From the NCBI GenBank assembly GCA_003565625.1, contig PXBD01000075.1:1-38048 (forward strand): DNA of 38,048 nt. Direction: 5' to 3'. Positions 1 to 38,047 of this stretch are shown here, piece by piece. Each line of letters begins with the position of its first letter. Position 1 is the stretch's first letter. This DNA comes from Gammaproteobacteria bacterium (lineage in GTDB: Bacteria; Pseudomonadota; Gammaproteobacteria; Xanthomonadales; Wenzhouxiangellaceae). The translations under genes were made by a program, and so were the position numbers. Under the pieces are notes generated by a model. That model was not told the origin of the DNA and ran no database searches. It saw only the letters and a program-made list of their open reading frames with translations.

Positions 1-120
1 ACCTTCGGTTCTGAGTGTCACGATCATCCTCCGATGATCCCAGACCCCGGCCGGCCTTCAGGCTCACTTCTCGCTGGAAATACAAGACCCGTTCAGGCTC
101 ATGTGTCATTGGAAGAGGCT
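1..120 (+). repeat. Left copy of a 120-bp perfect inverted terminal repeat, upstream of tRNA-Lys
   Basis: Bases 1-120 are identical to the reverse complement of bases 37928-38047, with no mismatch. Within the repeat, GATCATC (23-29) and GATGATC (34-40) form a 7-bp stem around the loop CTCC. The decamer TTCAGGCTCA occurs twice as a direct repeat (57-66 and 90-99). There is no convincing reading frame. Identity stops at 120, and the -35 box of the tRNA-Lys promoter begins at 126. Because both copies run into the window ends, the true repeat may extend further outward. Its nature (insertion sequence end, MITE, shared tRNA upstream region) cannot be decided from this sequence. Confidence 0.95.
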
Positions 121-125
121 GGCAG

Positions 126-154
126 TTGAGATTTTTCGGTTTTGCCGCTATTCT
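126..154 (+). promoter_or_regulatory. Sigma-70 promoter of tRNA-Lys
   Basis: TTGAGA (126-131) and TATTCT (149-154) are separated by 17 bp. A GC-rich discriminator (CTCCGGC) follows, as expected for a stringently controlled stable-RNA promoter. The predicted start is near 161, giving a short leader before the tRNA at 174. The 120-bp repeat ends 5 nt before the -35 box. Confidence 0.7.
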
Positions 155-173: not shown

Positions 174-248
174 GGGCCGTTAGCTCAATGGTAGAGCAGT
201 AGGCTTTTAACCTATTGGTTGAAGGTTCGAGTCCTTCACGGCCCACCA
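174..248 (+). tRNA. tRNA-Lys (anticodon UUU)
   Basis: A full cloverleaf can be folded. The acceptor stem is GGGCCGT/ACGGCCC, and the D arm contains AGCTCAATGGTAGAGC. The anticodon stem is GTAGG/CCTAT around the loop CTTTTAA (anticodon TTT). The T arm contains GGTTCGAGTCC, followed by discriminator A and an encoded CCA tail. The gene has its own promoter and no terminator before the methyltransferase gene that starts 20 nt downstream, so the two may be co-transcribed. Confidence 0.97.
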
Positions 249-37804: not shown

Positions 37805-37881
37805 TGGTCGGGGTGAGAGGATTCGAACCTCCGGCCCCTGCCTCCCGAAGACAGTGCTCTACCAGGCTGAGCTACACCCCG
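37805..37881 (-). tRNA. tRNA-Pro (anticodon CGG)
   Basis: On the minus strand the acceptor stem is CGGGGTG/CACCCCG, and the D arm is AGCTCAGCCTGGTAGAGC. The anticodon stem is CTGTC/GGCAG around TTCGGGA (anticodon CGG). The T arm contains GGTTCGAATCC, with an encoded ACCA end. C at position 1 is typical of bacterial tRNA-Pro. It has its own promoter and terminator and is a single-gene unit. Confidence 0.97.
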
Positions 37882-37893
37882 ACGAAGCCGACA

Positions 37894-37922
37894 AGTATAG
37901 CGCTGGCAGCTACCTCGGGCAA
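37894..37922 (-). promoter_or_regulatory. Sigma-70 promoter of tRNA-Pro
   Basis: On the minus strand TTGCCC (37922-37917) and TATACT (37899-37894) are separated by 17 bp. The predicted start is near 37887, about 6 nt before the mature tRNA. The 120-bp repeat ends 5 nt upstream of the -35 box, as it does at tRNA-Lys. Confidence 0.7.
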
Positions 37923-37927
37923 GGGAT

Positions 37928-38047
37928 AGCCTCTTCCAATGACACATGAGCCTGAACGGGTCTTGTATTTCCAGCGAGAAGTGAGCCTGAAGGCCGGCCG
38001 GGGTCTGGGATCATCGGAGGATGATCGTGACACTCAGAACCGAAGGT
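37928..38047 (-). repeat. Right copy of the 120-bp perfect inverted terminal repeat, upstream of tRNA-Pro
   Basis: This is the exact reverse complement of bases 1-120, including the GATCATC/GATGATC hairpin and the two TTCAGGCTCA decamers. The flanks diverge completely inside 37928 (ATCCC here against GGCAG at the other copy), so the boundary is sharp. Only one further base (38048) remains outside it in the window. Confidence 0.95.

Follow-up and report, generated by a model that had tools for sequence, protein, structure and literature searches.

The 120-bp repeat at both ends of the window, i.e., of the whole 38,048-nt stretch of DNA that was analysed, is the transposase-start end of an insertion sequence (IS) of about 1.40 kb. 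The flanks of this end show predicted sigma70 promoters to be the target, before which the IS is locked in one phase and one orientation. We consider it likely that the element inserts 5 bp upstream of the -35 box of sigma70 promoters and that, as we infer, its transpososome recognises the holoenzyme bound to the promoter.

The window is the complete contig G000:C13:1-38048 of an assembly of 2.8 Mb in 95 contigs (about 90% complete), and it breaks within the repeat at both ends. Positions 1-120 and 37928-38047 form an inverted pair of 120 nt that is 100% complementary, confirming the earlier note, which had described the one as the reverse complement of the other. The same note had placed the end of the repeat 5 nt from the -35 box at both tRNA genes and this was found again: GGCAG is followed by TTGAGA at tRNA-Lys and ATCCC by TTGCCC at tRNA-Pro. 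Both copies terminate with ...TCATTGGAAGAGGCT, followed by 5 nt, the -35, 17 nt and the -10. The features are as follows:

1-120, minus strand: IS end on the transposase-start side, before tRNA-Lys (from identity and full-length copies; the transposase would read leftward off the contig)
1-27, minus strand: putative first nine conserved transposase codons, M-I-V-T-L-R-T-E-G (read against transposases MIVTLKTQG...; start codon provisional)
57-80, no strand: inner subterminal repeat TTCAGGCTCAcTTCTCgcTGGAAA (same two-repeat layout in full-length copies)
92-120, no strand: terminal inverted repeat TTCAGGCTCATGTGTCATTGGAAGAGGCT (matches AGTCCTTTCCAAT..ATGAGCCTGAA at the other end)
121-125, no strand: GGCAG, 5-bp target duplication (second copy at the other end of the element, G000:C49, L132)
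126-131, plus strand: -35 TTGAGA of the tRNA-Lys promoter (TTGAG conserved in four element-free relatives)
149-154, plus strand: -10 TATTCT of the tRNA-Lys promoter, spacer 17 (sequence and relatives)
174-248, plus strand: tRNA-Lys (TTT) (ARAGORN)
37805-37881, minus strand: tRNA-Pro (CGG) (ARAGORN)
37894-37899, minus strand: -10 TATACT of the tRNA-Pro promoter, spacer 17 (sequence)
37917-37922, minus strand: -35 TTGCCC of the tRNA-Pro promoter (sequence and relatives)
37923-37927, no strand: ATCCC (as read on the minus strand), presumed 5-bp target duplication (by analogy with full-length copies; partner not found in the bin)
37928-38047, plus strand: second copy of the IS end, before tRNA-Pro (from identity; the transposase would read rightward off the contig)

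At 2466-2562 the window furthermore contains a 40-nt inverted repeat (95% complementary, loop of 17 nt), which is terminator-like or a small repeat element.

In the bin, the start end is present in two copies only (searched with its terminal 17 nt, one mismatch allowed) and the opposite end in one, on contig C49 (two mismatches allowed). The middle of the element is absent from the bin: nothing in G000 matched the transposase at E <= 1e-20. A 38-nt stretch had no exact match in the genome contigs searched, and a 22-nt end pattern had no match in the viral contigs searched. Further copies occur in other genomes: scanning genome contigs with TTCAGGCTCANNTGTCATTGGA returned at least 118 stretches, a set that was obtained with one exact pattern and is not a census. 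Hosts among the matches listed are Thiobacillus, Gallionella, Nitrospira, Methylomonas, Thiocapsa, Chromatiales, Rhodocyclales and others. For 66 of the 119 matches listed, no more than 300 nt of the stretch remain on the side of the element, which is what a multi-copy element that breaks assemblies would produce. Similar repeats lie in relatives upstream of tRNA-Pro, tRNA-Met, SRP RNA and dnaA, and of 370 genomes sampled from the class, 25 contain the transposase (E <= 1e-20). The larger multi-copy element that had been postulated from the window is thereby borne out by full-length IS copies in other genomes, as is the suspicion that the visible 120 bp reflect the assembly, their extent being set by where the assembly broke, inside two copies. 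A degenerate relative of the repeat (L007, G014:C339) was matched over query positions 12-70 only. The 5.1-Mb chromosome OY282433 (G067) carries 21 ends; one of its loci, L077, is a MITE-like copy that retains both ends within 177 bp, too little to accommodate a transposase, and here too 5 nt separate the element from a TTGACC.

Full-length copies measure 1400-1414 bp, possess inverted repeats of about 30 bp and carry one ORF of about 420 aa, thereby showing what is general for an IS, i.e., a short element with inverted terminal repeats and a single transposase gene. The two ends read AGYC..TTTCCAAT......ATGAGCCTGAA and TTCAGGCTCAnnTGTCATTGGAnnRGRCT, and in full-length copies the transposase starts near the end of the type seen in the window and reads inward. 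The transposase core is of the rve type (matches to Pfam rve at E 2.5e-6 and 1.5e-5, which do not reach the family cut-off). Among 12 transposase sequences D197 and E294 are invariant and D257 is nearly invariant, and we read these three as putative catalytic residues. The AlphaFold model of the transposase is poor (mean pLDDT 62, alignment of six sequences); a Foldseek search with this model returned retroviral integrases with TM values of about 0.2-0.3 to the query, matches that would support an rve fold only. In a sequence search of the PDB the best match was weak (E 0.0032), to the integrase chain of entry 7z0h.

Identical 5-nt flanks border 12 of the 16 full-length copies with both ends, the four without a duplication being L036, L057, L092 and L164; L164/L197 has neither a duplication nor a visible promoter. 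The single-contig genome G186 contains four copies with equal search scores and the duplications CCCCG, CCCCG, CGGCC and CTGAC. In the genome of the window itself, GGCAG adjoins the tRNA-Lys-side end (121-125) as well as the other end on C49, beyond which lies a gene that we read as a putative deoC. The tRNA-Lys loci of 29 relatives were read for an empty site, and in five of them a deoC homologue lies just upstream. Four of these (L224, L235, L229 and L219) align across the joined deoC|tRNA-Lys site; they lack the element and conserve both TTGAG and the -10. The fifth, L230, has 258 nt between the genes and no alignment across the site. Because GGCAG is found at both ends and the site is joined in relatives, the insertion can be placed between deoC and tRNA-Lys, exactly 5 bp upstream of the -35. 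For the tRNA-Pro insertion, a contig with the matching other end was not found in the bin; in several relatives a promoter is present at the same tRNA-Pro place and the element is absent. Target duplication and empty site, which characterise insertion sequences in general, are both found. In L057 and L101 the flank of the start end consists of the start end, 5 nt and the opposite end of a second element, a tandem that would result from two hits at one position before the same promoter.

Beyond the transposase-start end the flanks follow the pattern N5-TTGACA-N17-TATAAT (122 distinct flanks among the matches listed). A logo was drawn from the 115 of these 122 flanks, among the matches listed, that have the standard tail, the seven with other tails being left out; in percent, positions +6 to +11 read T81 T56 G72 A45/C38 C58 A36 and positions +29 to +34 read T50 A66 N A43 A56 T66. 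A promoter score, i.e., the matches to TTGACA-N16-18-TATAAT out of 12, was determined for a second set of 122 distinct flanks among the matches listed, differently filtered and largely overlapping the first. In this set it is maximal at offset 5 (mean 7.56 of 12), amounts to 5.5 at each of the two neighbours that have the -10 in common with it (offsets 4 and 6), and lies at 3.0-4.2 at the remaining offsets of 0-39; shuffled flanks score 3.3-3.8. A score of at least 9 of 12 is reached at offset 5 by 42 of the 122 flanks among the matches listed and at offsets 10-59 by 0.1 of 122 on average. The 5-nt phase to promoters is far beyond chance, recurring over 122 distinct flanks from many genomes among the matches listed. 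As a control, 27 flanks of the opposite end gave a mean of 3.19 at offset 5 and none of them reached 8; because the promoter pattern is absent beyond the opposite end, the orientation is fixed.

Among the matches listed, the offset-5 peak was seen in Thiobacillus sp. 63-78 (16 sites, mean 7.94), OY282433 (13 sites, mean 6.69), S012_40 (11 sites, mean 7.64), Gallionella/Gallionellaceae (10 sites, mean 7.20), Nitrospira (7 sites, mean 8.43), Wenzhouxiangella and kin (11 sites, mean 7.91) and the remaining 54 sites (mean 7.52). The highest mean in any host group at offsets other than 4, 5 and 6 is 5.86. Although all flanks differ in sequence, independence is incomplete for sites of one genome or of close relatives; L037 and L069, from two Nitrospira, look like one inherited insertion.

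The insertion sites are shown by their sequence to be complete predicted promoters with -35 and -10. A -10 of at least 4/6 is present at 91 of the 122 sites among the matches listed, versus 10.6% at random positions, and is lacking at the other 31. At most two matches to the -35 are seen at 30 of the 122 sites among the matches listed, and at 20 of these 30 the -10 is still present. At insertion sites with TTG(A/C)C as -35, among the matches listed, a -10 of at least 4/6 is found in 27 of 33, compared with 7.2% of the 4562 TTG(A/C)C words found elsewhere in these loci. The -10 follows the -35 with a normal spacer. Within the 59 clear-promoter sites among the matches listed, the -35 is at offset 5 in 49, and the -10 is at 28, 29 and 27 in 38, 11 and 4, respectively; because the -35 mostly keeps its offset while the position of the -10 varies, the -35 is the anchor.

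Only 15 of the 122 sites among the matches listed have a tRNA gene at a distance of up to 300 nt, at 14 of them reading away from the element, and a tRNA-specific element was rejected on this count. The earlier note had suggested an insertion guided by tRNA promoters or polymerase; the phasing to promoters stands, and the restriction to tRNA genes has to be given up, the targets being, as predicted from the flanks, sigma70 promoters generally. Copies away from tRNA promoters, which had been named there as speaking against this suggestion, do exist as far as tRNA genes are concerned, not as far as promoters are. Ten downstream proteins were scanned, namely that of L003 and nine that had been chosen as likely genes out of 20 listed at random. 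Named matches among them include DnaA (L003), DnaX (downstream of the SRP RNA in L012), ribosomal protein L13 (rplM), SurE, phosphoribulokinase and the large subunit of glutamate synthase; the downstream protein of L013 had no named match in the scan.

Ten elements with transposases that are 46-58% identical were also scored, and the best promoter score is at offset 5 in seven of them (L200-L203, L207, L212 and L213), from which the habit of promoter insertion looks old and shared, with some drift. Off the rule are L206 (best offset 6), L204 (offset 7) and L205 (no clear promoter). At L213 (locus 908-1408 of the Polaromonas plasmid CP087967), the start end directly adjoins the end of a small gene annotated as 'TniQ family protein', which is probably a chance neighbour.

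The simplest model is docking on the promoter-bound polymerase, because the sigma70 holoenzyme is the common feature of the sites. The transpososome would recognise RNA polymerase-sigma70 holoenzyme on promoter DNA. Its most probable docking surface would be the nearest one, sigma region 4 at the -35, and the element ends would be joined where the polymerase complex borders the upstream DNA. The start end faces the promoter, which leaves the core promoter whole and turns the transposase gene away from it; this outcome would account for the copies next to dnaA and tRNA genes. Such targeting would spare host genes and give the element a safe home, as that of Ty1/Ty3 does at Pol III genes in yeast. 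We lean slightly towards the more specific reading of an IS family guided by the holoenzyme via sigma70 region 4, which would constitute a bacterial counterpart of Ty1/Ty3 with a single transposase and no dedicated target selectors.

Many IS read short target words, and the main rival is a transposase that itself reads promoter-like DNA (TTGAC and a -10-like motif) without polymerase. The -35, which is next to the joining site, is indeed the strongest part of the logo. However, the sites have both boxes with a spacer varying from 16 to 18 as sigma70 allows, TTGMC at insertions is accompanied by a -10 much more often than other TTGMC words (27/33 versus 7.2%, among the matches listed), and sites with a weak -35 keep the -10 (20/30, among the matches listed), so that we regard direct reading of the DNA as unlikely. 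Guidance of the transposase by another protein sitting at promoters, i.e., an activator, a nucleoid protein or sigma alone, would resemble the role proposed for XerC with ISAjo2; for the dif-hunting IS a direct contact between transposase and XerC is proposed (Harmer, Pong and Hall, 2023; PMC10132070). Yet the first 50 nt of the flanks hold no strong common motif besides the two boxes, and it is the holoenzyme that is common to such diverse promoters, which leaves another guide protein with a slight probability.

A selective origin of the pattern would mean random or intergenic insertion, with those copies surviving that spare the promoter or activate it as an artificial UP element. Damage at housekeeping genes such as tRNA, dnaA and rplM, which are among the targets, would be harmful, but at -50 or -70 an insertion would do just as little harm, and the copies are found in a single-nucleotide phase and in one orientation with no excess at other offsets. 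Because the phasing is single-base, selection alone is insufficient and this origin is very improbable. That the contig ends fall inside the repeat could point to an assembly artefact, or the repeat could be a conserved regulatory module, the alternative raised in the earlier note as a conserved upstream control module. Complete copies with duplications lie inside the single-contig genomes G186 and G375, though, and the repeat is the end of an IS with a transposase gene, target duplications (12/16 full-length copies) and an empty site in relatives; these rule out the control module, and the probability of artefact or module taken together is negligible.

Docking on the promoter-bound holoenzyme would add to the known target cues of bacterial transposons, which are DNA words, replication forks, guide RNAs, dif/XerC and the attTn7 proteins. 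If it is true, transcription and transposition are joined in bacteria by a single-gene IS locked to the upstream border of the sigma70 holoenzyme, the harmless multiplication of such elements beside essential genes is explained and the elements can serve as natural labels for promoters that are active in uncultured genomes. In searches of the open-licence PMC literature no paper on a promoter-targeted bacterial IS was found. The eukaryotic retrotransposons Ty1/Ty3 insert at a fixed place upstream of Pol III genes via the transcription machinery. The bacterial IS likewise occupies a fixed place upstream of promoters and, as would be expected of a Ty3-like element, keeps constant phase and orientation at the promoters of many genes, whereas contact with the machinery is established for Pol III and only inferred here. 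Tn7/TnsB shares with it targeted transposition, a 5-bp duplication and repeats within the ends, which in Tn7 are repeated transposase sites; in contrast, Tn7 uses several proteins including dedicated target selectors and has TGT/ACA ends.

The closest precedent for a promoter-locked IS is the ISAjo2-type IS of the IS1202 family, which hunt dif sites (Harmer, Pong and Hall, 2023; PMC10132070). These insert 5 bp away from XerC sites, always in the same orientation and with duplications of 5 bp, and it is suggested that the transposase may contact XerC (PMC10132070). Both the ISAjo2 type and the present IS are single-gene DDE elements with a 5-bp duplication, an extra repeat inside the end and a fixed orientation, the left end of ISAjo2 lying 5 bp from the binding site of a host protein. 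They differ in the target, which is XerC at dif/pdif for ISAjo2 and predicted sigma70 promoters here, in the ends (TGT...ACA versus AGYC...GRCT) and in the IS1202-family Q at E+7, in place of which E294-SKNGSV-A/V is found here. The pXBB1-9 transposase, taken as that of ISAjo2, has E247 and Q254. IS1202-family transposases are 25-56% identical to TnpAjo2 (PMC10132070), and a relation of the present transposase to TnpAjo2 was not detectable by BLASTP (best E 0.071, 26% over 93 columns) or hhalign (probability 1.5%). Membership in IS1202/ISAjo2 was rejected on TGT ends, Q at E+7 and transposase similarity. ISCARN53/62/63 are listed in Table 7 of that paper as similar in size to the promoter IS (1387-1404 bp, 407-432 aa) but with duplications of 16-17 bp (PMC10132070). 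The present IS group is apparently undescribed.

Weak similarity over the rve core was found to IS481 (NCBIfam NF033577, E 2.5e-9 and 2.4e-13); membership was rejected at 37.1 and 50.3 bits versus a curated cut-off of 224, and the transposase has about 420 aa as opposed to the 284 positions of the IS481 model. A homologous core is shared with ISNCY family transposases (about 510 aa) from Mesorhizobium, Novosphingobium and Acidithiobacillus plasmids, three of which are 25-28% identical to the promoter-IS transposase (hhalign probability 99.5%). Unlike the promoter IS, ISNCY elements have transposases of about 505-511 aa, a length of about 1.7 kb where measured and different ends. The N5-TTGACA pattern was not seen in eight ISNCY element flanks, read by eye. 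Several of L274, L275, L279 and L280-L284 (Mesorhizobium, Aminobacter and Novosphingobium plasmids) share an outside motif of about GATTGNCGCGC, preceded by CTCTC/TTCTC-like bases and present in some copies on both sides in inverted order, and these ISNCY relatives may target another protein-binding or palindromic site.
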